A stretch of 64,000 nucleotides of DNA. Origin: Marinobacterium jannaschii DSM 6295 (lineage in GTDB: Bacteria > Pseudomonadota > Gammaproteobacteria > Pseudomonadales > Balneatricaceae). Made by a program: the position numbers and the translations under genes. Under the pieces are notes generated by a model, which did no database searches, was not told the origin of the DNA, and saw only the letters and a program-made list of their open reading frames with translations. The stretch is from NCBI RefSeq assembly GCF_000620085.1, contig NZ_KK211069.1, positions 45,527 through 109,526 of the forward strand, in the 5' to 3' direction. This document shows, one piece after another, positions 7,901-59,297 of the stretch. Numbering within the stretch: position 1 is the first letter of the stretch; each line of letters starts with the position of its first letter.

Positions 7901-8339
7901 GACTACCCTGACGCAGCGTATCAAGACCGGTTCCGGTGGTGAGCATCAGGTACCGTTCTATGTTGCGATCGCGGCCGCAATGGGCGCCACCTATCGACTG
8001 CGAGAGGACGCCGATGGCAAGGTGCTGGGCGGTATGAGTCTGTCGGTATTCGATGAGGCGTTCAACAAACTCGACTCTGAGAACACCATGACCTCGCTTG
8101 GCTTTATGAGCGACCTGGGACTGCAGACCATCATTGCGGCACCGGATGAGAAGTACAGCCTGCTCAGCTCCTGTATGGATACCATCATCAACGTCTGCCG
8201 TGACGGCCGGGTAGTGGATATCGATGTCGAGTTCCCCACCGAGAAGGGTAAGGAATTGCTCAACTCCGACAACCCACGCAAGCTAATGGCTGAGATCGAC
8301 GCTGAGATTGAAGCAGAACTGGCGGTCGATCCGGCCTGA
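4902..8339 (+). CDS. JetC/MksB-like SMC ATPase
   Basis: This 1145-residue protein is an SMC/RecN/MukB-type ATPase. Walker [10 protein letters not shown] is at about 30-38 and a signature-like GSGGEH at about 1010. Walker [13 protein letters not shown] is at about 1045-1056. Between them are two long coiled-coil arms (about 270-340 and 620-900) and a hinge-like globular region (about 450-580). This is the JetC size; canonical MukB (about 1480) is longer. With its kleisin and KITE partners it should form an ATP-driven DNA-loop-extruding complex. In Wadjet systems a JetD nuclease follows and cleaves small circular DNA. Here the operon ends with a terminator after this gene and no JetD-like protein is encoded in the window. 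Confidence 0.9.
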
Positions 8340-26717: not shown

Positions 26718-27188
26718 GTTTTGCTCCAAGATCTTTATTTTTTTTGTCTGGAATCAGTCAGCATTTAAGCGCTGACCTGGTCTTTGAGGTTGTATAACGA
26801 TTACCGGATAGCTGAAGACAGACCACTGCCGTGATGTGCTGGCTGCACAAAACCACAGTGCTTCGGAATTATCCGGCGGTCGGTTTTGAATCAGCTGTGG
26901 GGCGGTGATATTTTCGCAACGGGTATTCGGCAGTGAATGCGATGCGAAAAGGTGTCTTGCAGGCAGGAAGAGTGGATTGAACACTGAGCTGAGCGGAAAG
27001 CAGAGACGCTGTCCGTATTACAGAATGAGAAAAGGATCTGTTTCAGATTCATAATCTGGCCTCGCGTACCCTGTGCCGGATCACGGCGGGTCGCTCCTGT
27101 CTTATTGTTTTTCAACCGGCCGATAGGCCGCTGATTCAGGTACTTCCTTTATCGCCCGGGTAGAGCGACTGGGTAAATCTACATCTAC

Positions 27189-33602: not shown

Positions 33603-35378
33603 TCAGTCGAGCAGAGAGATCGCGGTCGGTGCATCGGCCGCGTTTTCTGCCAGATCTTCAAATTCATTGATGTTGTTGATCTCAACACCCATGGAGATGT
33701 TGGTTACACGCTCCAGCAGGATCTCTACGATGACCGGTACCTGATGCTCGGCCATCAGTGCCTTGGCCTGAGCCAGTGCGGCACTGATCTCTTCCGGATC
33801 GCGTACACGGATCGCCTTACAGCCCAGGCCTTCCGCTACCGCAACGTGGTCGACACCGTAGCTGCCGAGTTCCGGTGCATTGACGTTCTCGAATGACAGC
33901 TGTACGCAGTAATCCATGTCGAATCCACGCTGCGCCTGACGGATCAGACCCAGGTAAGAGTTGTTTACTACCACGTGGATATACGGCAGCTTGAACTGCG
34001 CCCCGACCGCCAGCTCCTCGATCATGAACTGGAAGTCGTAGTCACCGGAGAGGGCAACAACGTTGCGTTCAGGATCGGCCTTGGCGACACCCAGCGCCGC
34101 CGGCACAGTCCAACCCAGGGGACCCGCCTGGCCACAGTTGATCCAGTGGCGTGGCTTGTAGACGTGCAGGAACTGCGCAGCCGCGATCTGGGACAGGCCG
34201 ATAGTGCTGACATAGCAGGTGTCTTTGCCAAAGGCTTCGTTCATCTCTTCATAAACGCGCTGTGGCTTGATCGGCGTTTCGGTGAAGTGGGTCTTACGCT
34301 GCAGGGTGCGCTTACGCTCCTGACATTCGGACAGCCACTTGCTGCGGTCTTTCAGCTTGCCGGCTTCGCGCCATTCACGTGCCACTTCGATAAACACTTC
34401 AAGCGCCGCTCCGGCGTCCGATACGATGCCGTAGTCCGGCATAAATACGCGGCCGATCTGGGTTGGCTCGATATCAACGTGAACGAACTTGCGGCCTTCG
34501 GTGTAGACATCGACACCACCAGTGTGACGGTTGGCCCAGCGGTTACCCACGCCCAGTACAAAGTCGGAGGCCAGCAGGGTGGCGTTACCGTAGCGGTGAG
34601 AGGTCTGCAGACCTACCATGCCGACCATCTGTGGGTGATCGTCCGGAATCGTGCCCCAGCCCATCAGGGTCGGGATAACCGGCAGGCCGGTGATCTCGGC
34701 AAATTCCACCAGTTTGTCGCTGGCATCGGCGTTGATAATACCGCCACCGGCAACCAGCAGCGGGTTCTCTGCTTCATTCAGCATGCTCAGTGCTTTCTCA
34801 ACCTGGCTGCGGGTTGCAGCAGGCTTGTGCACTTCCATCGGCTCGTAGGCGTCGATATCAAACTCGATTTCGGCCATCTGCACGTCAAATGGCAGATCCA
34901 GCAGTACCGGTCCCGGGCGGCCGGAACGCATGATGTGGAATGCTTTCTGGAATGCGTACGGAATCTGCGCAGGCTCCAGTACAGTGGTGCACCACTTGGT
35001 GACCGGCTCGGCGATTTTGGAGATCTCTACCGCCTGGAAGTCTTCTTTGTGCAGGCGGGCTGTCGGGGCCTGGCCGGTAATGCAAAGAATCGGAATTGAG
35101 TCCGCAGATGCGGAGTAGAGGCCTGTAACCATATCAGTACCCGCAGGGCCGGATGTACCGATACAGACACCGATGTTGCCTGGATTGGTCCGGGTATAGC
35201 CCTCGGCCATATGAGAAGCCCCCTCCACATGGCGCGCGAGTACGTGATCAATCCCACCATGTTTCTTTAATGCAGCATACATAGGGTTGATAGCAGCGCC
35301 CGGTATACCGAATGCGGTATCGATACCTTCGCGTGCCATTACCAGCACTGCTGCCTCTATCGCTTTCATTCTGGCCAT
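33603..35378 (-). CDS. gcl: glyoxylate carboligase (tartronate semialdehyde synthase)
   Basis: 591 residues, as in E. coli Gcl, from ATG 35378 ([18 protein letters not shown]) behind GGTGGAAGAG. It is a thiamine diphosphate enzyme of the acetolactate-synthase family. Near the C-terminal third the ThDP motif [12 protein letters not shown] is visible. The position of the catalytic Glu found in related enzymes ([15 protein letters not shown]) lacks that Glu; Gcl is known to have a Val there, and this protein reads IPGAAIN, consistent with Gcl. It joins two glyoxylate to tartronate semialdehyde plus CO2. It is the first gene of the five-gene operon; a promoter with an overlapping operator lies just upstream. 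Confidence 0.96.
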
Positions 35379-35428
35379 TACTCTTCCACCTCGTTTTAAA
35401 ATAATTGTATACACGAATGTGTCCAATA

Positions 35429-35458
35429 ATTCTAAACACATGCTGACTTTTGGGTCAA
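35429..35458 (-). promoter_or_regulatory. sigma-70 promoter of the gcl operon
   Basis: On the minus strand TTGACC (35458-35453), 18 bases, TAGAAT (35434-35429), giving a predicted start near 35422 and a 44-base leader to gcl. The -35 box is inside the palindrome listed next, so a protein bound there would block RNA polymerase. Confidence 0.65.
35443..35458. promoter_or_regulatory. RutR-like operator (TGAC-N6-GTCA) on the gcl promoter
   Basis: CTGACTTTTGGGTCAA, palindrome TGAC-TTTTGG-GTCA at 35444-35457. The identical 16-mer occurs at 54056-54071. The known E. coli RutR consensus, TTGACCA-NN-TGGTCAA, has the same half-sites and spacing. The likely binder is the RutR-like protein encoded at 54601-55206. 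Confidence 0.6.
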
Positions 35459-38844: not shown

Positions 38845-41800
38845 ATGGCTCAGACAACTGCCGCAACAACACAAAGTAATTTTGCCTTTTTGGCAGAATA
38901 TGATCCGATCTTTCAACAGCTGGCAACGTTGGCAGAAAGGTCGTTCTCTAGTGACCCTAACACTACACTGATCAAACTGCGTCAGCTGGGCGAAGCATTT
39001 GCTCAGGATATTGCAGCACGTTGCGGCTTGGAGTTTGATGACCGTACCAGTCAGTCAGACCTGCTTTATCGGCTCAATCGAGAAGTGGGTCTGGAGCGTG
39101 TCGTTCTCAATCTTTTTCAGACCTTGCGGATCGAGGGCAACAAGGCGACCCACCAGTTTCGAACACGCCATAAAGAAGCGTTGGATGGCCTTAAACTGGC
39201 GCGTGAGCTGGCTGTCTGGTTTCATCGCTCATTCGGCAGCAAGGCTTCCGGTTTCAAAGCCGGGGCCTTTATCCCCCCTCAGGACCCGAGTCATCACCTG
39301 CGTGATCTGCAAACGGAGATTGAAAAGCTAAAGGTTGAACTGTCAGAAACCAATCAACAACTGGACTCGAGTCAGCAATTAACTGAGTTGTTGGAGCGTG
39401 AGAAGGAAGAGTACGCTGTACTGGCTGAGCAGATGGATGCTGAAGCCAGGCAGCTGTCAGAACAGTCAGAAACAAGCGAGTCTGCCTTCACGCAGCAGCT
39501 AAGTGAGTTTGAAGCGCGTGTCAAAGAGTTGCAGGACGAGTTGGCCAGGAAGGATACTCGTCAGGTTTCAGAACAGAAGAAAAGTATCGGTCAAAGCACG
39601 CGTAAAGCGACGCAACACATCACACTCAATGAAGAGCTGACACGTATCCTTATCGACCAGCAGCTCCAGGAAGTGGGTTGGCAAGTAGATACCCAAGAGC
39701 TGACCTATCAGAAAGGCTGTCGCCCGGAGAAAGGTGTCAACAAGGCGATTGCTGAATGGCCAACTCAGTTCCGGGGAAAGAAGGGCCGGGCAGACTATGT
39801 ACTGTTTTGCGGCTTGGTTCCGGTGGCAGTGATTGAAGCCAAGAAAGAGAACAGCAACGTTGCGGGAAAAATCCTCCAGGCTGAGCGTTACTCAAAAGGG
39901 TTCAGGGTTGAAGTCAGTCAGACGGGGGCTTGGACATTAGCTGGTCAGACGGTTGCCTGGCCGGATGATCAGGATGCTCACTACCATGTACCTTTCGTGT
40001 ATTCCTGTAATGGTCGTCCATTCATTAAACAGTTGGCAGAACAATCCGGGACCTGGTTCCGGGATGTGCGCGATAACAGTAATACCGCGAGAGCGTTACA
40101 GCAGTTCCACAGTCCTGAGGGTCTGCTGGACTTGCTTAAGCGCAGCAAAGCAGAAGCGCAGAAAACGTTACAGCAGGAGGGCTTCTCTTACCTAAAGCTG
40201 CGTGACTACCAGCAGAAGGCTATTCAGTCAGTTGAGACCGCACTGGAGAATAATCAGCAACATTGTTTGCTGGCGATGGCTACCGGTACAGGCAAAACCC
40301 GGACCATCATCGGGCTGATGTACCGCTTCCTCAAAGCAGAACGCTTTAAACGCATACTCTTCCTTGTGGACCGAAGTGCACTTGGCCAGCAGGCCCTTGA
40401 TGCGATTAATGAAGCTCCGCTTGAGCAAAGCCAGACCCTCTCGAAAATCTACAATGTTGCCGAACTGGGGGATATGGCAGCGGAGGCTGAAACCCGGATA
40501 CAGGTAGCCACTGTACAAGCGATGGTGAAACGCATCTTTATGTCGGATTCGCCACCGCTTGTGGATCAGTTCGATTGCATCATTGTGGATGAAGCCCACC
40601 GTGGTTATACGCTTGATCAGGAGATGACAGAAGGTGAGTTGGCAACCCGGGATGCGAGCCAGTATCTCTCAAGTTATCGTCGCGTGCTGGATTATTTTGA
40701 TGCGATCAAAATTGGTTTAACCGCTACGCCTGCCAAGCACACAAGCGATATCTTCGGTAAACCGGTGTACACCTATACCTATCGTGAAGCGGTGGCGGAT
40801 GACTGGCTGATCGATCATGAACCTCCGATCCGCTATCAGACATTGCTGTCCAGGCATGGCATCAGGTTTGAGAAAGGTAGTGAGGTATCAGCCATCAATG
40901 TCCAGACGGGTGAGGTTGAATCTGCTGAGCTGGATGATGAGCTGAATTTCGAAATCGAAGCGTTTAACCGGCGAGTGATCAACGAGAACTTTAACCGTGT
41001 TATCTGCGAACAGCTGGCTCAGGAGATTGATCCCTTTGGTGATGAGAAAGCCATGATCTTCTGTGCGACTGACCTGCATGCGGACATGGTGAAGCGTCTC
41101 TTAGATGCCGCTTTCAAAGAGCTGTATAACGGCGACTACAATCAGGCAGCGGTTGTTAAGATCACTGGCCAGAGCGATAAAGTGGATCAACTGATCCGCC
41201 AGTACAAAAACGAGCGCTATCCTAATATCGCAATAACTGTCGACCTGCTGACGACCGGTATTGACGTACCAGAGATCTGCAACCTTGTATTCCTTCGCCG
41301 GGTGAAGTCACGAATTCTCTACGAACAGATGGTAGGGCGTGCCACTCGCCGCTGCGACGAGATCGGTAAAACAGTATTCCGTATCTACGACCCAGTCGAT
41401 ATCTATGCTGCTCTTGAGCCGGTTTCTACAATGAAGCCGCTTGTGAAAGACCCGAATATCACCCTGGAGCAGTTGGTTGAAGAACTGACCGATCCAGAGC
41501 AGCTACAGCAAGCTTTAGAGGCACCGGGTGAGTCAGAGAACGAATCACATGCGGATGCTGTTCTGAGTCAGCTCAGTCAGAAGGTGATGCGAGTGTTACG
41601 CAAAGCCGAGAAAAAGGCAGAACGTAAGCCGCAGCTGAAACAGAAACTGGATGAACTGGAGCGGCTCTGGGGTGTCGAGCCTAAGAAACTTCATCAGCAC
41701 CTTCATTCATTGGGGCCGAAGCAGGCTTCAGCGTTTATGCAGCAACATCAGGGAATACTGAATCAGTTAGATGAAGTACGTCAGTTCTTAGGCAGCGAGA

Positions 41801-42372
41801 ACTACCCGGTGATTTCTGATCATCATGACGTGCTTGAGGTCCGGGAGCAGAGCTACGGCATCTATGAAAAGCCTGCTGACTATCTGGATAGCTTCGCTCA
41901 GTTCATCCGAGAACAGATCAACCAGTCCGCTGCACTCTCCGTTGTTGTTAGCAAACCGAGAGATTTGACCCGGGAACAGCTGAAAGAGATTCGCATCATG
42001 CTGGATGGGGCGGGTTACAGTGAGGCTTCGTTGCAATCAGCATGGCGTAACAAAACTAATCAGGATATCGCAGCCAGTATCATCGGCCATATCCGGCAGG
42101 CCGCATTGGGTGAAGCGCTGCTGCCTTTTGAACAGCGTGTGCAGAACGCAATGCAGAGCATTTATGGCCAGCATCAATGGACACCCGCGCAAAGGAAGTG
42201 GCTTGATCGCCTGTCCAAGCAGCTGACTCATGAAGTGATTATCGATCGAGAGACGATTAGCGCTATCCCGGCTTTTCCAGGCGGAGCCAAGCAGCTGGAT
42301 AAAGCGTTAGGGCAGAAGCTGGATGATGTGCTGGATGGTCTTAACGACAGCCTTTGGCAGTCGGCTTCATGA
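38845..42372 (+). CDS. hsdR: type I restriction enzyme R subunit (HsdR, EcoEI-like)
   Basis: 1175 residues. An N-terminal DUF4145-like helical domain (about 1-135) and a coiled coil (about 150-240) precede the HSDR_N nuclease domain, whose PD-(D/E)xK centre is RADYVLF..VAVIEAKKEN at about 315-335. The translocase follows: Walker A ATGTGKTRT near 480, DEAH (IIVDEAHRGY) near 580, and helicase motif VI MVGRATRR near 830, with a C-terminal EcoEI_R_C-like domain. It translocates DNA and cleaves unmodified DNA when bound to HsdM2S. It begins the operon that continues fic-hsdM-hsdS; fic is separated by 138 bases of regulatory DNA. Confidence 0.95.
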   Translation: MAQTTAATTQSNFAFLAEYDPIFQQLATLAERSFSSDPNTTLIKLRQLGEAFAQDIAARCGLEFDDRTSQSDLLYRLNREVGLERVVLNLFQTLRIEGNKATHQFRTRHKEALDGLKLARELAVWFHRSFGSKASGFKAGAFIPPQDPSHHLRDLQTEIEKLKVELSETNQQLDSSQQLTELLEREKEEYAVLAEQMDAEARQLSEQSETSESAFTQQLSEFEARVKELQDELARKDTRQVSEQKKSIGQSTRKATQHITLNEELTRILIDQQLQEVGWQVDTQELTYQKGCRPEKGVNKAIAEWPTQFRGKKGRADYVLFCGLVPVAVIEAKKENSNVAGKILQAERYSKGFRVEVSQTGAWTLAGQTVAWPDDQDAHYHVPFVYSCNGRPFIKQLAEQSGTWFRDVRDNSNTARALQQFHSPEGLLDLLKRSKAEAQKTLQQEGFSYLKLRDYQQKAIQSVETALENNQQHCLLAMATGTGKTRTIIGLMYRFLKAERFKRILFLVDRSALGQQALDAINEAPLEQSQTLSKIYNVAELGDMAAEAETRIQVATVQAMVKRIFMSDSPPLVDQFDCIIVDEAHRGYTLDQEMTEGELATRDASQYLSSYRRVLDYFDAIKIGLTATPAKHTSDIFGKPVYTYTYREAVADDWLIDHEPPIRYQTLLSRHGIRFEKGSEVSAINVQTGEVESAELDDELNFEIEAFNRRVINENFNRVICEQLAQEIDPFGDEKAMIFCATDLHADMVKRLLDAAFKELYNGDYNQAAVVKITGQSDKVDQLIRQYKNERYPNIAITVDLLTTGIDVPEICNLVFLRRVKSRILYEQMVGRATRRCDEIGKTVFRIYDPVDIYAALEPVSTMKPLVKDPNITLEQLVEELTDPEQLQQALEAPGESENESHADAVLSQLSQKVMRVLRKAEKKAERKPQLKQKLDELERLWGVEPKKLHQHLHSLGPKQASAFMQQHQGILNQLDEVRQFLGSENYPVISDHHDVLEVREQSYGIYEKPADYLDSFAQFIREQINQSAALSVVVSKPRDLTREQLKEIRIMLDGAGYSEASLQSAWRNKTNQDIAASIIGHIRQAALGEALLPFEQRVQNAMQSIYGQHQWTPAQRKWLDRLSKQLTHEVIIDRETISAIPAFPGGAKQLDKALGQKLDDVLDGLNDSLWQSAS

Positions 42373-42405
42373 TATGTATAAAAAATAAAAGAAAGTATAC
42401 ATATC
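42371..42405. repeat. perfect inverted repeat at the end of hsdR
   Basis: GATATGTATA (42371-42380) and TATACATATC (42396-42405), perfect 10-base arms around an A-rich 15-base loop, starting within the hsdR stop codon. No T-run follows. It could be an operator arm, a transcript hairpin, or part of the promoter controlling fic. Confidence 0.55.
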
Positions 42406-42414
42406 TGGTTTATG

Positions 42415-42490
42415 TGTCGAAAAATCCTGAGAAAATCGACATATCTTGTTTACATGTCGATACGATCGACATAAGCTCCCGGTGTGTCGA
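42415..42490. promoter_or_regulatory. array of five TGTCGA half-sites upstream of fic
   Basis: TGTCGA occurs at 42415, 42455 and 42485 on the plus strand and as TCGACA at 42436 and 42466, alternating in orientation. The first two plus-strand copies are part of an 18/21 direct repeat (42400-42420 and 42440-42460). Pairs form palindromes such as TCGACAT-N11-ATGTCGA at 42436-42460. An autoregulatory site for the Fic protein's own winged helix is the simplest idea. Confidence 0.6.
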
Positions 42491-42510
42491 AAAAAGTGGA
42501 TTTAGTAAAC

Positions 42511-43620
42511 ATGAGCTGGCAGCCAGATAGAGCCTTCAACGATTTGCCCCAACTGCCTCCAAGCCAAGATTTTGAAACTAAGTCAGTGCTTAAAGCATGT
42601 ATATCAGCACGGGCTGCGTTAGCTGAACTAAAACAGGCCGGTCAACTGCTGCCTAACCAAGGCATGCTGATCAATCTGTTGCCTTTGTTGGAAGCGAAGG
42701 ACAGCTCTGAGATTGAGAACATCGTCACTACTACCGATAAACTGTTCCAGTTTGCGCAAGAAGACAGTCAGGCCGATGCTATGACCAAGGAAGCGCTGCG
42801 CTACCGAACAGCGCTTTATCAAGGGTTTACTCACCTGGAGCGCAAACCGCTGTGTGTCACCACCGCTTTGGAAGTATGTAGCACCATCAAATCGATGGAT
42901 ATGGATGTGCGCAAAGTGCCCGGGACTAACCTAAGCAATCAGGCGACTGGTGAGGTGATCTACACACCACCCGAAGGCGAGCATGTTATTCGAGAGCTGT
43001 TGAGTAACTGGGAGCGATTTCTCAATGCTGAGGATGACATCGATCCGCTAGTAAAGATGGCCGTAGCGCACTACCAGTTTGAAGCGATACACCCCTTTAT
43101 TGACGGTAATGGTCGTACAGGGCGCGTGTTGAACATCCTGTATCTGATCGACCAGCAGCTGCTGACATTGCCAATTCTTTATCTGAGCCGCCATATCGTC
43201 CGGTTTAAACAGGATTACTACAGGCTTCTGCTGGACGTTACCCGTGAACAGAACTGGGAACCCTGGATCATCTTTATGTTGCAGGCGGTGGAGAATACCG
43301 CTCGCTGGACGACAGAGAAAATAGCGGCGACTCGCTCGTTGCTAGAACACACCTCAGAATTTGTGCGTGAACAACTGCCCAAAATCTACAGCTATGAACT
43401 GATTCAACTGATCTTTGAACAGCCATACTGCCGCATCGGTAATCTGGTCGAGAGTGAAATTGCCAAGCGACAGACGGCTTCTGTCTATCTTAAGCAGCTC
43501 TGTGAAATAGGCGTGTTACACGAGATGCAGGTCGGTAAAGAGAAGCTGTTCGTACACCCAAAATTAATGACACTGATGACGCAGGACGGCAATCAGTATC
43601 CAGCATATTCAATGGAATAG
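42511..43620 (+). CDS. Fic-domain AMP/NMP transferase with inhibitory helix, inside the type I R-M operon
   Basis: 369 residues from ATG 42511 (MSWQPDRAFNDLP, the family's usual opening); the GTG at 42484 would put part of the TGTCGA array inside the gene. The catalytic Fic motif HPFIDGNGRTGR is at about 193-204. An N-terminal (S/T)xxxE(G/N) inhibitory motif, SSEIEN, is at about 64-69, which makes it a class II Fic held inactive until the helix moves. The C-terminal 80 residues form a winged helix. Fic enzymes usually attach AMP to a protein hydroxyl. The gene lies 5 bases before hsdM, so it is coexpressed with the methylase. Confidence 0.9.
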   Translation: MSWQPDRAFNDLPQLPPSQDFETKSVLKACISARAALAELKQAGQLLPNQGMLINLLPLLEAKDSSEIENIVTTTDKLFQFAQEDSQADAMTKEALRYRTALYQGFTHLERKPLCVTTALEVCSTIKSMDMDVRKVPGTNLSNQATGEVIYTPPEGEHVIRELLSNWERFLNAEDDIDPLVKMAVAHYQFEAIHPFIDGNGRTGRVLNILYLIDQQLLTLPILYLSRHIVRFKQDYYRLLLDVTREQNWEPWIIFMLQAVENTARWTTEKIAATRSLLEHTSEFVREQLPKIYSYELIQLIFEQPYCRIGNLVESEIAKRQTASVYLKQLCEIGVLHEMQVGKEKLFVHPKLMTLMTQDGNQYPAYSME

Positions 43621-43625
43621 CCCGA

Positions 43626-45221
43626 ATGACAAATAACGATATCGTACAAAAACTCTGGAACCTCTGTGACGTACTGCGTGATGACGGCATCAACTACAGC
43701 GACTACGTGACTGAGCTGGTTCTGCTGCTGTTTATCAAGATGGTTCATGAGAATACTGAGAACGGTACCCTGCAGAAGCACAGGTTGCCGGAAGGGTGCC
43801 GCTGGACTGACATTAACGGTAAGTCGGGCCTTAATCTGCTGAACGATTACAAGCGTATTCTGCTGTCACTATCTACCGGCTGGGATGCTGAAGATAACCT
43901 TGTGCATGATGATCCGCTGATCAGTGCAATCTATGCAGATGCGCAGACCCGGCTGCGTGAGCCCCGCCACCTTGAGCAGTTGGTGAAGTCACTGGATCAG
44001 ATTGATTGGTTCAGTGCTCAGAAAGATGGGCTGGGTGACCTCTACGAAGGACTGTTGGAGAAGAACGCCAACGAAACCAAATCCGGAGCGGGGCAGTACT
44101 TCACACCGCGAGCTCTGATTAACTCCATGGTGCGTTGTATCAAGCCTCAACCGGGTGAAAAGATTCAGGACCCGGCAGCCGGTACAGCAGGCTTTTTGAT
44201 CGCTGCTGATGCCTTTATCAAAGAACAGACTGATGACCTGTTTGATCTGGATGCAAAGGAACAGGCATTCCAGAAAAACAAAGCCTTTATCGGGGTTGAA
44301 CTGGTACCGGGAACCCGCCGTTTAGCACTGATGAACTGTTTGTTACATGGGATGGAAGGTGATGACGAAGGTGTCGTTCACTTAGGGAACGCTCTCGGTC
44401 AGGTCGGAGCCGGCCTGGAAAAAGCAGACGTTATTTTAGCCAATCCACCCTTCGGTACCTCTAAAGGCGGTGAGGCTTCAATCACCCGTGATGATCTTAC
44501 CTACGACACCAGTAACAAGCAGCTGGCGTTTCTGCAGCATATCTACCGCAACTTGAAGGCCGGTGGCCGTGCTGCTGTGGTACTACCGGATAACGTCTTG
44601 TTTGAAGCAGGTAAAGGTACTGATATTCGTCGTGACCTGATGGATAAGTGTAACCTGCACACTATCCTCCGATTACCGACCGGCATCTTCTACGCCCAAG
44701 GTGTAAAAACCAATGTGCTCTTCTTCACCAAGGGCAGCGCTACGGATACTTATCAGGAAGAGAACTGTACAGAGAACGTCTGGGTCTATGACCTGCGTAC
44801 CAATATGCCAAGTTTTGGTAAGCGTACCCCGTTTAATGAAACCTATCTGAAACCGTTTGAAGCGCTTTACGGTGAAGACCCTAACGGAACTAGTGAGCGC
44901 ACTGCAGGGGACTGGTCATTTACTGATACAGATACCGAGCAGGTTGAAACAACCTCTCGCTGGCGCAGATTCAGCCGTGAATATATTGCCGAAACCAAAG
45001 GCAACTCGTTGGATATCAGCTGGCTAAAAGACAGCGACAGTGTGGATGCCGCCGACCTGCCAGCGCCGGAACTGTTGGCCGCAGAAGCCATGAGTGAGCT
45101 GACAGAGGCATTGCGTGAGTTGGATGGTTTGATGCAGGCGTTGGGTGCTGGAGACCAAGCGACGGTGCAGAAGCAGTTGTTAGCAGATGTATTGACAATG
45201 GATGCTGAGGTGAAGCCGTGA
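43626..45221 (+). CDS. hsdM: type I DNA methyltransferase subunit (HsdM)
   Basis: 531 residues: an HsdM N-terminal helical domain (about 1-130), then the N6-adenine methylase with SAM motif DPAAGTAGFLIAAD near 181 and catalytic NPPF (ANPPFGTSKGG) near 272. The C-terminal region interacts with HsdS. It methylates host sites and forms the core of the restriction complex. Its stop overlaps the GTG start of hsdS by 4 bases. Confidence 0.96.
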   Translation: MTNNDIVQKLWNLCDVLRDDGINYSDYVTELVLLLFIKMVHENTENGTLQKHRLPEGCRWTDINGKSGLNLLNDYKRILLSLSTGWDAEDNLVHDDPLISAIYADAQTRLREPRHLEQLVKSLDQIDWFSAQKDGLGDLYEGLLEKNANETKSGAGQYFTPRALINSMVRCIKPQPGEKIQDPAAGTAGFLIAADAFIKEQTDDLFDLDAKEQAFQKNKAFIGVELVPGTRRLALMNCLLHGMEGDDEGVVHLGNALGQVGAGLEKADVILANPPFGTSKGGEASITRDDLTYDTSNKQLAFLQHIYRNLKAGGRAAVVLPDNVLFEAGKGTDIRRDLMDKCNLHTILRLPTGIFYAQGVKTNVLFFTKGSATDTYQEENCTENVWVYDLRTNMPSFGKRTPFNETYLKPFEALYGEDPNGTSERTAGDWSFTDTDTEQVETTSRWRRFSREYIAETKGNSLDISWLKDSDSVDAADLPAPELLAAEAMSELTEALRELDGLMQALGAGDQATVQKQLLADVLTMDAEVKP

Positions 45222-46738
45222 GTGAGGTTGTTTTACCTGAGGGGTGGGAAAGCTCCACGATCTCAACTGTATGTTTACTAAACCCTAAAGAACGTTTAGC
45301 CGATGAGCTGGACGTAGGCTTTATGCCTATGGCTGGAGTGCCTACGGTCTTTCACGGGACTTGCCAATTTGAACTTCGTAAATGGGAAAGTGTAAAGAAA
45401 GGCTTTACTCAGTTTCGCGATGGGGATGCGATCTTTGCCAAGATAACTCCATGTTTTGAAAACAGTAAGGCAGCAGTTATTGAGGGCTTCCCTTCTGGAT
45501 GGGGTGCGGGTAGCACTGAGTATTATGTATTACGGCCTATTGGTCACGCGATCAATCCGAAACTGCTTCTGGCATTGGTGAAGACAAAGGCGTTTTTGGT
45601 TAACGGCGCGACAAACATGTCTGGTTCCGTAGGCCATAAACGTGTGCCAAAAACGTTTGTTGAAAGTTACCCTCTGCCTTTGCCACCAATTGCTGAACAA
45701 AAAGAGATCGCTGACAGATTGGATAACCTGCTGGCACAGGTCGACAGCATTAAAGCCCGCCTTGATGCCATCCCCGTCATTCTCAAACGCTTCCGCCAAT
45801 CCGTCCTAGCCGCTGCTACTTCAGGTGAACTTACTAAAACTTGGCGTGAAAGATCGGCACTAGGGAAACATGATGTTCCCCAGCTTAAGGAAATTATGGA
45901 ACGTGAATGGTTTGAGGCAAAAGAGAGGGAATTTAAGAGAAAGGGAAAAAGGCCCAAAAGTGATAATTGGAAGAAGTTCGGCGATCCTGTAATCATTGAG
46001 AATGATGAACTGGGCTGGGTTTCGGTCTCATTAGAAAATGTTGCAGAAGTGATTGATCCTAATCCGTCCCATCGCATGCCAAAGTACGTTGATGATGGAC
46101 TTCCATTTATATCTAGTGAAAATATTACTAGAAACGATTCAGTTGATTTCAATAAGGGAAAAAAAATTACGGACGAAGAATTACAAAAACAGAAACAACG
46201 GTATGAAGTTACACACACTACCTTCGCATTTACCCGAATTGGGACCATTGGAAAATCAGTTAGCTTGCCCTTGCCTCATAATTACGGGGTAAGTCATGCG
46301 ATGGCAATCGTAACCCCAAGTGGGGTAATTGATGGTGCATTTCTGAGGTTGGTAATTTCTTGTGAAAGTATAATCAAGCAAGCATTTGATGGAGTTCAAA
46401 GTGTAGGAGTACCTGATTTAGGTATCGGTAAAATGAAAGCATTTCGAATACCATTGCCGATGCTGGATGAACAAGAAGAAATTGTTAGAAGGGTTTCCGG
46501 GCACCTAGCAATTGCAAAACAGATTGAACAGCAAGTGAAAAAAGCCCAGTCACAGGTCAATAACCTCACCCAATCCATCCTCGCCAAAGCCTTCCGTGGT
46601 GAACTCACCGTGGACTGGCGTGCCGAGCATCCAGAACTGATCTCCGGTGAAAATTCAGCACAGGCGTTGCTGGAGCGCATAAAAGCGGAACAGGAAAAAC
46701 TGGCACCACAGAAGAAAGGCCGTAAAAAAAGGACATAA
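45218..46738 (+). CDS. hsdS: type I specificity subunit (HsdS)
   Basis: 506 residues in the two-TRD layout. TRD1 is about 1-150, then a conserved spacer helix (IAEQKEIADRLDNLLAQVDSI, ending AAATSGELT) about 155-205. TRD2 is about 215-410, then a matching second helix (DEQEEIVRRVSGHLAIAKQI, ending AKAFRGELT) about 415-475. The two halves bind the two parts of a split DNA target. Bases 45840-46500, which encode TRD2, are visibly more AT-rich than the rest of the operon, as expected where recognition domains have been exchanged. It starts at GTG 45218. Confidence 0.95.
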   Translation: MSEVVLPEGWESSTISTVCLLNPKERLADELDVGFMPMAGVPTVFHGTCQFELRKWESVKKGFTQFRDGDAIFAKITPCFENSKAAVIEGFPSGWGAGSTEYYVLRPIGHAINPKLLLALVKTKAFLVNGATNMSGSVGHKRVPKTFVESYPLPLPPIAEQKEIADRLDNLLAQVDSIKARLDAIPVILKRFRQSVLAAATSGELTKTWRERSALGKHDVPQLKEIMEREWFEAKEREFKRKGKRPKSDNWKKFGDPVIIENDELGWVSVSLENVAEVIDPNPSHRMPKYVDDGLPFISSENITRNDSVDFNKGKKITDEELQKQKQRYEVTHTTFAFTRIGTIGKSVSLPLPHNYGVSHAMAIVTPSGVIDGAFLRLVISCESIIKQAFDGVQSVGVPDLGIGKMKAFRIPLPMLDEQEEIVRRVSGHLAIAKQIEQQVKKAQSQVNNLTQSILAKAFRGELTVDWRAEHPELISGENSAQALLERIKAEQEKLAPQKKGRKKRT

Positions 46739-52894: not shown

Positions 52895-53479
52895 GTGTGT
52901 GGACGTTTAAACGTATCAGACGCGCCACTGAGTGAGTGGGTCAGTGAGCTACTGGGTATCAGGTTTCAGGCCCACAGCAACAGTGACCTGCGTCCGACTG
53001 ACAATGTGGCTGCGGTTGTTTCACTGCAACAGCCTACGCAGCTTGATTTGCAATGGGGCATCAAGCCGGCCTGGGCAAAACGGCTTCTGATTAACGCTAA
53101 AGCGGAAACAGTCGCGGAGAAAATTACCTTCAAAGCTGCATTTGCCGCTACTCGCTGCCTGATACCCTGTTCCGGCTGGTATGAATGGCGCATAGAAGGC
53201 GAGGGGCATAAACAGAAATACCTGTTCACTGAGCCTTCGGGTTTACCTCTGCTGATGGCTGCGGTCTGGTATCCCGCGCGTGGCTGTCCTGATAAAGAGG
53301 GCGGTCAGTTTGTCTCCCTTACCCGACCTGCCAATCCCGCTTGCCTGCCTTACCATCACCGTATGCCGCTGTTTATCAGGCCTGATTGTGTCCGGCAATG
53401 GTTGCAGGGGGATATGGCCACTGCCGGCACGATGCTGGGCGGAGATGATGCTCAGTCTTTCCTGATCTGCGCCGCTTAA
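52895..53479 (+). CDS. SRAP (YedK/HMCES-like) abasic-site protein
   Basis: 194 residues beginning MCGRLNV: after Met removal Cys2 is the catalytic residue that bonds covalently to abasic sites in single-stranded DNA. Further family motifs are RPTDN (about 31-35), NAKAET near 66, CSGWYEW near 90, and HHRMP near 150 with the catalytic His. It protects and processes abasic DNA. The start is GTG 52895, required for the CGR motif. Confidence 0.92.
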   Translation: MCGRLNVSDAPLSEWVSELLGIRFQAHSNSDLRPTDNVAAVVSLQQPTQLDLQWGIKPAWAKRLLINAKAETVAEKITFKAAFAATRCLIPCSGWYEWRIEGEGHKQKYLFTEPSGLPLLMAAVWYPARGCPDKEGGQFVSLTRPANPACLPYHHRMPLFIRPDCVRQWLQGDMATAGTMLGGDDAQSFLICAA

Positions 53480-53506
53480 AGCGTCGCCTGAGCTAAGGAG
53501 TTTTCT

Positions 53507-53893
53507 ATGCAACTTTCTATGCAACTTGGCACCTTTTCTATCAGCCTGACTGTCCGGGACCTGCAAGCTTCCCGTTCCTTTTATGAGAAGCTTGGTTTCA
53601 GCGCGAGCTGCGGTGATGAGGCTGAAAACTGGTTGATTATGCAGAACGGCGACCAGTTGATTGGCCTGTTTCAGGGCATGTTCGAACGCAATATGCTCAC
53701 TTTTAATCCCGGCTGGGATCAGCAGGGCAATCAGCTGGAGACGTTTACCGATATTCGGGAGTTGCATCAGCGACTGAGCGCGTCAGATATCCCTATCGAG
53801 CAGGATGAAAGCTGCGCAAGTGAGGCGGGGCCCGCCAGCTTTATCGTCACCGATCCCGATGGCAATCCGATACTGATCGATCAGCACCGCTGA
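53507..53893 (+). CDS. VOC (glyoxalase/bleomycin-resistance fold) family protein
   Basis: 128 residues with the beta-alpha-beta-beta-beta VOC pattern, opening TFSISLTVRDLQASRSFYEKLGF and closing FIVTDPDGNPILIDQH. Start ATG 53507 is 7 bases after AAGGAG. The family covers glyoxalases, dioxygenases and resistance proteins; the reaction here is unknown. It lies 27 bases after the SRAP gene in the same direction. Confidence 0.85.
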   Translation: MQLSMQLGTFSISLTVRDLQASRSFYEKLGFSASCGDEAENWLIMQNGDQLIGLFQGMFERNMLTFNPGWDQQGNQLETFTDIRELHQRLSASDIPIEQDESCASEAGPASFIVTDPDGNPILIDQHR

Positions 53894-53929: not shown

Positions 53930-53962
53930 CAAAAAAAAGCCCCATCGGTAAGGATGGGGCTT
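53930..53962 (-). terminator. intrinsic terminator reading leftward (end of candidate sRNA)
   Basis: On the minus strand AGCCCCATC-CTTACC-GATGGGGCT is followed by eight T. There is no T-run for plus-strand reading, so it serves a minus-strand transcript. No minus-strand protein gene lies between here and 54601. Confidence 0.8.
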
Positions 53963-54036
53963 CAAAGCCAACTTTGATATACAGAGTAACCCCGGTTCTG
54001 AAGTGCAATCGCTCACCTTCAGGGGGCCCTTAGAGC
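53932..54036 (-). ncRNA. candidate regulated small RNA, about 105 nt
   Basis: Predicted start near 54036 (from the promoter at 54043-54071), end at the terminator's T-run near 53932. The transcript has a second strong hairpin near its 5' end, CTGAAGGTG-AGCGATTG-CACTTCAG, flanked by CCCC and GGGG that can extend it. There is no ATG frame inside; a GTG frame at 54016 would run through the terminator and is rejected. It is controlled by two RutR-like operators. Promoter, operators, hairpin and terminator are seen; existence of the RNA is inferred, and it matches no family I know. Confidence 0.55.
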
Positions 54037-54042
54037 ACCTTC

Positions 54043-54071
54043 ATTACAGCAAAACCTGACTTTTGGGTCAA
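54043..54071 (-). promoter_or_regulatory. sigma-70 promoter of the candidate small RNA
   Basis: Minus strand TTGACC (54071-54066), 17 bases, TGTAAT (54048-54043). The -35 box is inside the palindrome at 54057-54070, exactly as at the gcl promoter, where the same 16-mer is used. Confidence 0.6.
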
Positions 54072-54094
54072 TTGGAAATTGACTTAAAAGTCAG
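54056..54094. promoter_or_regulatory. tandem RutR-like operators (two TGAC-N6-GTCA palindromes)
   Basis: TGAC-TTTTGG-GTCA at 54057-54070 and TGAC-TTAAAA-GTCA at 54080-54093, centre to centre 23 bases. Together they also form one 18-base inverted repeat (16/18) about a GGA centre. The first contains the 16-mer found on the gcl promoter. The RutR-like gene at 54601-55206 lies nearby and is the obvious regulator. Confidence 0.6.
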
Positions 54095-54600
54095 AAAATA
54101 TCGGGATTTATATATACCGTTATCTTGCGTGTTCCTATTGCAGGTTTTCTTATCGGCCTTGGTGCTGACGTTTCCGTGAAACTGACCGGTTAATCAGGGC
54201 TGGGAGCCATGCCGGCTGCAGGTGCCTGTGGCCTCAGGCGGGGCGCTCAGGCCTGGCCTGGATGTGATCCCGATGGCTCTTACAGCGCCGATCGTGGAGA
54301 TGTGAGTATGGAGGTATGAGTATGGGGATATGAGTGTTACAGCGTATACAGGTCGCGGATGGTGTAGGTTGCCGGTTCTTGCTGCGCGGGAGTAGGGTGC
54401 CCAGGTGTCGGTTAAGGTAGGAGATCTGCGTAGTTATCGGCTGGCAAAGCTTTGCCAGCCGATAGCTGAGAGATTCACTGCGCTTTGTATTGCCATTTGC
54501 GGGCCGGTTGAATGCCGTCACGTAAGTGTGAGTGCTGAAGAGATGAGCCCTGCTTGCAGGAATCCCGGGGTTCCGCTTTGAGGCTCCGCGCCATGGGGTG
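54095..54600. other. non-coding region between candidate sRNA control region and rutR-like gene
   Basis: About 500 bases with no convincing gene. The minus-strand frame at 54234-54521 has low-complexity, Pro/Arg/His-rich composition and is rejected. Near 54301-54336 the words GAGTATGG and TATGAGTAT recur, a small degenerate repeat. A perfect 30-base palindrome at 54435-54464 is listed separately. A short plus-strand frame ending at 54193 (GADVSVKLTG) could be a gene remnant, but nothing supports it further. Confidence 0.4.
54435..54464. repeat. perfect 30-base palindrome without spacer
   Basis: Left half TATCGGCTGGCAAAG, right half CTTTGCCAGCCGATA, exact complement with no loop, 137 bases beyond the 3' end of the rutR-like gene. 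No T-run on either side. It could form a cruciform, bind a dimeric protein, or end the regulator's message. Confidence 0.8.
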
Positions 54601-55206
54601 CTAGCCAGGCAGTGTCCCGGCCAGTACCAGGCGGGTAATCAGTTCGGCGGCGGTGTCGTAATCTTCCTGGTCCAGCTTCTCTTTTCCGGTGACTGCGGTG
54701 ATCTGCCAGTCAAAGTCGGCGTAGGTCTGGGTGGATGCCCAGATGGTGAAAAGCAGATGCTTCGGGTCGACCGCCTGCATCTGCCCGTCGGCGATCCACT
54801 GTTCAATGCGGGCGACACTGGCGCGGGTCTGCTCCATCAGGCGCTCGGTAATATCCTCGGGCAGGTGAGGTGCGCCATGCATGATCTCGCTGGCAAATAC
54901 CTTGGAAGCACTGGGGTAGTTCTGGGAGATGGTAATCTTGGCTTTAATATATTCCCGTAACGCCGTTTCCGGATCCTGATAGATTTCGAAGGGTTCAGAT
55001 GAGGCCAGCAGGGGTTCTACTACCGATTCCAGTACCGAACGGTAGAGGATCTCTTTGCTTTTAAAGTAGTAGTAGACATTGGGCTTGGGTAAGCCGGCTT
55101 TGTTGGCGATATCGATTATCTTGGTGGCAGCAAAGCCTTTGTCGGCAAAGACTTCACTGGCTACGGTAAGGATGGTTGCTCTGTTGCGTTCGCGGATGCT
55201 GGCCAA
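54601..55206 (-). CDS. TetR family regulator of the RutR subfamily
   Basis: 201 residues. N-terminal helix-turn-helix (about 8-55, KIIDIANKAGLPKPNVYYYFKSKEILY). The C-terminal domain follows E. coli RutR closely: NYPSASKVFASEIMHGAPHL, AVDPKHLLFTIWASTQTYADFDWQI and AVTGKE align with the RutR equivalents. RutR is a pyrimidine-sensing repressor that binds TTGACCA-NN-TGGTCAA. Here the gene sits beside purine catabolism, and TGAC-N6-GTCA sites occur at gcl, the permease and the candidate sRNA, so its ligand may be a purine or ureide intermediate. No such site is seen directly on its own promoter. Confidence 0.9.
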   Translation of the reverse strand: MASIRERNRATILTVASEVFADKGFAATKIIDIANKAGLPKPNVYYYFKSKEILYRSVLESVVEPLLASSEPFEIYQDPETALREYIKAKITISQNYPSASKVFASEIMHGAPHLPEDITERLMEQTRASVARIEQWIADGQMQAVDPKHLLFTIWASTQTYADFDWQITAVTGKEKLDQEDYDTAAELITRLVLAGTLPG

Positions 55207-59188: not shown

Positions 59189-59272
59189 TGTGGAGATTAC
59201 CTTTGCTTATTTTTATGAGGTCACCAGCCCGCTCATCTGACCGGGCTGCCACTAAGAACACCATCTACTCAC

Positions 59273-59286
59273 TGACCCGGAGGTCA
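59273..59286. promoter_or_regulatory. RutR-like operator (TGAC-N6-GTCA) in the permease leader
   Basis: TGACCCGGAGGTCA, with longer CTGACC-CGGA-GGTCAG symmetry, close to the E. coli RutR consensus. It lies about 5 to 18 bases past the predicted transcription start, a classic repressor position, 85 bases upstream of the permease start codon. Confidence 0.6.
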
Positions 59287-59297
59287 GCTTGTTAAAA

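Follow-up and report, generated by a model that had tools for sequence, protein, structure and literature searches.

The minus-strand locus downstream of a RutR-like regulator gene in Marinobacterium jannaschii probably encodes a real small regulatory RNA, because the corresponding place in a relative from another genus holds the same unit. The window referred to here is the whole stretch of DNA that was analysed, 64,000 nucleotides long, and the features are collected in Table 1. Reading the sequence, we lean, at slightly better than an even bet, towards a free-standing unit of ~106 nt that the RutR-like protein would repress and purines would induce, and that would act in trans. The first-pass annotation had also proposed a regulated small RNA. 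It remains the simplest reading and is strengthened by the orthologous unit in Marinobacterium arenosum.

Table 1. Features of the predicted small-RNA unit and related loci. Positions are those of the window unless a locus or contig handle is given (G000, this genome; L107, M. arenosum).
Feature	Position	Strand	Basis and remarks
RutR-like TetR-family regulator, presumed repressor	54601-55206	minus	Pfam TetR_C_3 and TetR_N
Distal RutR-type operator (putative), CTGACTTTTAAGTCAA	54094-54079	minus	read from sequence; inverted arrangement
Proximal RutR-type operator (putative), TTGACCCAAAAGTCAG	54071-54056	minus	covers the -35 box; identical in M. arenosum
-35 box, TTGACC	54071-54066	minus	read from sequence; identical in M. 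arenosum
-10 box, TGTAAT, extended by a preceding TGC	54048-54043	minus	read from sequence; identical in M. arenosum
Predicted small RNA, ~106 nt, 5' end GCUCUAA	54036-53931	minus	+1 from promoter position; counterpart on L107 minus strand, within 7997-8104 (M. arenosum)
5' end GCUCUAA, candidate seed	54036-54030	minus	7/7 bases identical in M. arenosum
First hairpin, bulged	54028-53988	minus	folds; similar shape in the ortholog, diverged sequence
Linker from hairpin to terminator, conserved AGUUGG; can form a small 6-bp hairpin here	53987-53963	minus	alignments, fold
Intrinsic terminator, 10-bp stem and U8	53962-53931	minus	reading and scan; conserved in M. arenosum
Similar operator pair before xdhA	G000:C4:7644-7683		second site 8 nt away
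Cyclophilin-like gene (PF04126)	L107:7570-7941		adjoins rutR in M. arenosum

The promoter that the first-pass annotation had claimed is present by direct reading, with 17 bases between its two boxes and at the coordinates given. A promoter scan of 4 kb does not list it, since the scan requires A at the second position of the -10 box and TGTAAT carries G there. That scan found 2 promoters against a shuffle mean of 2.2. The predicted +1 is the G at 54036, placed from the position of the promoter. Two RutR-like operators had been claimed at the -35 box, and both stand: they are 16 bp long and lie 7 nt apart, and the first six bases of the proximal one are the -35 box itself.

The strong terminator with eight T was equally sound. 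Its stem occupies 53962-53937 and the eight T occupy 53938-53931. It ranks first in the list of the terminator scan, which found 9 such sites in 4 kb against a shuffle mean of 4.1. Predicted promoter and intrinsic terminator thereby bound a length within the 50-250 nt expected of a trans-acting small RNA, yet the -10 box is without its A.

The predicted RNA folds in the order of an unpaired 5' end, a bulged hairpin, a linker with an optional small hairpin, and the terminator. As a whole it has a folding z of -2.99, terminator included. The second stable hairpin of the first-pass annotation is our first hairpin, and it is indeed stable (z -2.09 against dinucleotide shuffles, with 12 of 500 shuffles as good). 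Hairpin and linker taken without the terminator reach a z of only -0.82 here and -0.27 in M. arenosum. The first six bases of GCUCUAA are unpaired at a probability of at least 0.77 in the RNAs of both genomes. This is a conserved unpaired candidate seed, on two sequences only. If extra bases are added to the 5' end of the RNA, a weak outer stem pairs the first base or two.

A small protein encoded by the unit was considered and rejected, as the two genomes have no frame in common. A 77-aa frame beginning with GTG here and a frame beginning with TTG in M. arenosum both cross the terminator, from different start points. Compared by eye in three frames, the two genomes share no protein sequence before the terminator. 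The claim that no credible protein frame lies in the unit is therefore borne out.

The comparison with M. arenosum strengthens the small-RNA reading. Its genome (G082, with a contig in which the M. arenosum CAU 1594 stretch recurs without a single difference) is the only other carrier found among the 116 family genomes searched, and it belongs to another genus. The unit lies there in the same place and on the same strand, just downstream of the gene for an 80%-identical RutR-like protein. The operators, the promoter, GCUCUAA, the AGUUGG of the linker and the terminator are all kept. The rutR genes are identical at 472 of 599 DNA positions. The intervening spacers, which run from rutR to the operators (506 nt and 268 nt), align with a score of 24, against a mononucleotide-shuffle mean of 24.5 and maximum of 36 (n=100). 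The module from operators to terminator scores 117, where 200 mononucleotide shuffles reach at most 31. The RNA alone scores 41 against a shuffle maximum of 29 (n=500). When the segment from +1 to the terminator is aligned globally between anchors it scores 39, which 1 of 500 dinucleotide shuffles reaches; an unanchored local alignment of the same segment shows no excess, 153 of 500 shuffles being as good. The M. arenosum hairpin has a z of -2.14 (15 of 500 shuffles as good) and a similar bulged shape in another sequence. The bulged hairpin is missing from an alignment-based fold, in which only 2 of 16 pairs change on both sides. Two sequences are too few for covariation statistics.

The first-pass annotation had made conservation in close relatives a test of the unit. 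The outcome is mixed: the unit is kept in M. arenosum and absent from the 4 other same-genus genomes searched. It had also called for a covariance search of the hairpins; the covariance search that was run gave one further carrier in the 116 family genomes. The model used, R1, was built from two sequences with the terminator as its sole structure and was run under strict filters, and may thus have overlooked relatives that have diverged. Over the 116 family genomes it found the 2 carriers, and the next best match (26.7 bits) covers the terminator part only. Over 390 genomes from the order, at E 0.001, it found no convincing further carrier. Its one match there, of 32.7 bits in G241, was set aside as unrelated: in the 400 bases read there is neither an operator pair nor GCTCTAA. 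A DNA pattern run over genome contigs hit 6 stretches, one of them M. arenosum. The other five, in a Ferruginibacter, a Chryseobacterium, two Flavobacterium and an Elusimicrobiales MAG, were dismissed as chance by taxonomy alone. Searches of plasmids and phages gave no match to the unit.

The operators tie the unit to purine breakdown. In this genome the operator pair occurs in two places, at the small-RNA unit and before xdhA, the xanthine dehydrogenase gene, and the reversed control pattern occurs nowhere. Across the family the pair occurs in 22 places in 19 of the 116 genomes, and the reversed control once each in five genomes. Fifteen of the 22 places precede xdhA (14 of the 19 loci L088-L106, by script, and one on contig C60 of G082), so that the xdhA-associated pair is found in this genome and 14 relatives. 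Two of the 22 are the small-RNA unit. Of the remaining 5, four were assigned by eye as the interior of a coding region, LacI-type, ABC-transporter-like and XdhC-like. Single operator sites precede two more genes of this genome. One is the TPP-enzyme gene at 33603-35441, which we take to be gcl (glyoxylate carboligase) from its position, its domains and its sequence. The other is a monooxygenase gene (locus L036). The form TTGACYYAAAAGTCAG precedes xdhA, gcl and the monooxygenase gene, and the 16-mer of the proximal operator recurs identically before gcl (35443-35458) and at G000:C5:280368. Four further single sites of the exact pattern lie on contigs C6, C8, C9 and C26. A loose single-site pattern, with at most 1 mismatch, shows no enrichment over its control genome-wide (75 and 88 sites, where the control has 218 and 207), so the weight rests on the operator pair and the exact form.

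What these loci share is a 16-bp palindromic operator that overlaps a predicted promoter. At xdhA, gcl, the monooxygenase gene and the small RNA alike, the -35 box sits inside the operator and a -10-like hexamer follows 17-18 bases on, by eye. Since the same operators stand before xdhA, gcl and the monooxygenase gene, we argue for placing the small-RNA promoter in a purine-catabolism regulon. These operators, and the purine cluster that adjoins the unit, make purines a likelier signal than pyrimidines. To its right, on the same strand, lie genes for the RutR-like regulator, a Tsx-type channel, 8-oxoguanine deaminase, xanthine permease and urate oxidase. Further right on that strand are ureidoglycolate lyase, allantoicase and a polysaccharide-deacetylase-family protein, presumably the allantoinase PuuE. 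It must be noted that other elements lie in and around this cluster. The spacer that separates the small RNA from the rutR-like gene contains, at 54435-54464, a perfect 30-nt palindrome, TATCGGCTGGCAAAGCTTTGCCAGCCGATA, with no loop and no T run. Some 85 nt before the start of the xanthine permease gene, at 59272-59287, is a RutR-type palindrome of weaker form, CTGACCCGGAGGTCAG. Large genes that by eye resemble a type I restriction-modification system occupy 38845-46738, with gcl on one side and the purine cluster on the other.

The regulator itself points the same way. It scores 180.2 bits against TIGR03613, the RutR equivalog, where the cut-off is 368, so it is RutR-like and not RutR itself. 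Its best solved relatives are E. coli RutR chains. In RutR the uracil contacts are W77, Y97, W167, Q171 and Q179' (PMC10891134). The RutR-like protein keeps four of these five and has Leu for Trp77. The same holds for all 30 of 30 proteins compared, the window's own and its 29 closest fetched family orthologs. The leucine suggests a wider pocket that would take a purine ligand. A second RutR-like paralog in this genome (L054:1501-2188, G000:C2:136578-137265), 43% identical, keeps Trp77 and is possibly the pyrimidine counterpart. Beside that paralog is a palindrome, CTGACTAAAAAGTCAG, and by eye a carbamoyl-hydrolase-like gene is nearby.

One can imagine a scenario where there is no separate functional RNA at all. 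The terminator would end the rutR-like mRNA, and the operators would be spare or decoy sites, or part of a duplicated xdhA promoter that gives a non-functional short transcript. The first-pass annotation held that neither flanking gene needs this terminator, and on this point we disagree with it. On the minus strand the rutR-like gene comes before the unit, and in the 506 nt that follow it the scan reports no terminator of that strand, so the rutR-like mRNA may also end at 53962-53931. The promoter resembles that of xdhA in the same genome (81% over 51 nt, E 1.3e-5), which suits this scenario as well as the small-RNA reading. However, a terminator for rutR alone needs no regulated promoter ~110 bases before it. 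Both genera retain the promoter, the +1 region, the length of the stretch up to the terminator and a stable hairpin, but not the spacer. We consider it unlikely that the locus makes no functional RNA of its own.

Next in order is a scenario where the RNA is the 5' leader of a RutR-controlled operon, with an attenuating or leaky terminator. It would still head an operon in M. arenosum; in this genome that operon would have moved or disappeared, and the leader would be a relic or have become free-standing. In M. arenosum a cyclophilin-like gene begins 53 nt past the U run and is followed by a monooxygenase and a glyoxalase-like gene, all co-directional with the RNA and with no other exact operator nearby, so the RNA could be a leader there. 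The similar monooxygenase gene in this genome has its own operator and so belongs to the regulon. Part of the terminator's 5' arm in this genome (3 of 7 bases, with a probability of at least 0.86) is also engaged while the 3' arm has yet to be synthesised. In M. arenosum, by contrast, 6 of the 7 bases of that arm are free (pairing probability at most 0.10), which means there is no conserved antiterminator. A transcription attenuator is accordingly disfavoured on the folds of truncated RNAs from the two genomes. This genome has no credible minus-strand gene directly after the terminator, as a leader would need. The neighbour on the left, a glyoxalase-family gene, is convergent, and a 174-aa minus-strand frame at 53243-53767 opposes two genes with Pfam domains. 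Moreover, the cyclophilin-like gene also adjoins rutR in two genomes of another genus (G081 and G021), where it comes after rutR and the interval between them contains no operator match. It has no match in this genome at E 1e-10, and a regulon member may have been lost here. Taken as a whole, the leader scenario seems to us improbable.

The first-pass annotation knew of no RNA family for the unit, and no Rfam family fits it at the cut-off. At gathering thresholds the whole window contains a tRNA only. The best weak match of the RNA in cmscan is rnk_leader (RF01771), full length at 39.2 bits and E 1.6e-5 against a gathering threshold of 50. Without the terminator this falls to 12 bits (E 9.7), though it is still the sole family listed up to E 10. 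Among 57 relatives this genome scores best for RF01771, the others reaching at most 29.3 bits and none the cut-off, and background matches turn up in 6 of 14 control genomes. The predicted RNA is like the rnk leader in having a hairpin and terminator at similar length, and differs in that Rnk_N is found at E 0.001 in none of 10 genomes (this one and 9 relatives) and that the M. arenosum ortholog does not match RF01771 up to E 5. With a score that depends on the terminator, no rnk gene and no match in the ortholog, it is not an rnk leader, and a family member that lost its rnk gene is so improbable that we reject it. Anti-hemB (RF02837) and ncS54 (RF02871) reach 23.9 and 23.7 bits, most of which the terminator hairpin contributes. 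Their gathering thresholds of 49.5 and 43 are far above this, and neither matches once the terminator is removed.

We return to the free-standing, trans-acting small RNA. On this reading the RutR-like repressor, encoded just upstream, would bind the two 16-bp operators and block RNA polymerase. A purine catabolite, perhaps xanthine, hypoxanthine or urate, would bind the repressor, and the RNA would then be made. Its production would coincide with that of xanthine dehydrogenase, glyoxylate carboligase and the rest of the regulon. It would probably pair with one or more mRNAs and so adjust metabolism during growth on purines, with the exposed GCUCUAA end as the most plausible seed. An exposed 5' end, a hairpin, a linker and a U8 terminator are the usual anatomy of Hfq-dependent trans-acting small RNAs. 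Hfq is encoded in this genome and may bind the RNA, whose exact 5' end is a prediction.

The target scans, over 99 genes and over 110, gave nothing above background. The linker was compared with 99 start regions of this genome, and its best energy of -20.4 compares with a shuffle 1% point of -20.9. Against the same 99 regions the best value for the 5' end was -13.1, before a transporter-like gene at 26729, and 62 of 200 shuffles reach it. The seed complement TTAGAG[C/T] was sought in 110 genes from both genomes and has one site, within the start of a malate-synthase-like gene of M. arenosum. A homolog of that gene was not found in this genome.

A more ambitious version can be put forward tentatively. 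A purine-sensing RutR paralog, with Leu at Trp77, would drive a dedicated small RNA that forms the post-transcriptional arm of its regulon. This RNA would act in trans through its 5' seed and, in one genus, would also be the leader of a regulon operon. All these parts together seem to us possible and, on balance, rather unlikely.

It is worth considering the known systems. Spot 42 under CRP is a transcription-factor-controlled, trans-acting Hfq small RNA of the gammaproteobacteria. Our unit is like RNAs of that type in its predicted regulated promoter, its length of ~100 nt, its structured body, its exposed conserved stretch and its U-rich terminator, in a genome with hfq. It is unlike them in its putative RutR-like control within a purine-breakdown regulon, in having no sequence family and in being limited to two genomes, and it is a prediction from sequence.

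The operators of E. coli RutR are reported to be 16-bp palindromes (PMC10891134). A TetR_C_3 regulator with 16-bp palindromic operators is what the two systems have in common. The sites here, in contrast, stand before xdhA, gcl and other purine genes, and Leu replaces the stacking Trp77. Among small RNAs of Azospirillum brasilense, one associated motif resembles the E. coli RutR motif (PMC7685610). In the passage concerned the likeness is in the motif only, and the text of that paper mentions neither purine nor xanthine. The greA- and rnk-leaders are suspected by their authors to act also in trans (PMC2965389). No such RNA appears in the titles and abstract openings of the matches listed for RutR with small RNA, or for purine catabolism, xanthine dehydrogenase and Hfq. 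Searches on the rnk leader, and on small RNAs in Marinobacterium, found no papers. We would class the unit as a narrowly distributed, transcription-factor-controlled small RNA, with the RutR-like motif of the Azospirillum small RNAs as its nearest published relative in the sources available.

If it is expressed, the unit would put a small RNA under the control of a RutR-type nucleobase repressor, and it would link purine breakdown to post-transcriptional control. The map of the regulon and the difference of Leu for Trp77 are simple, testable predictions.
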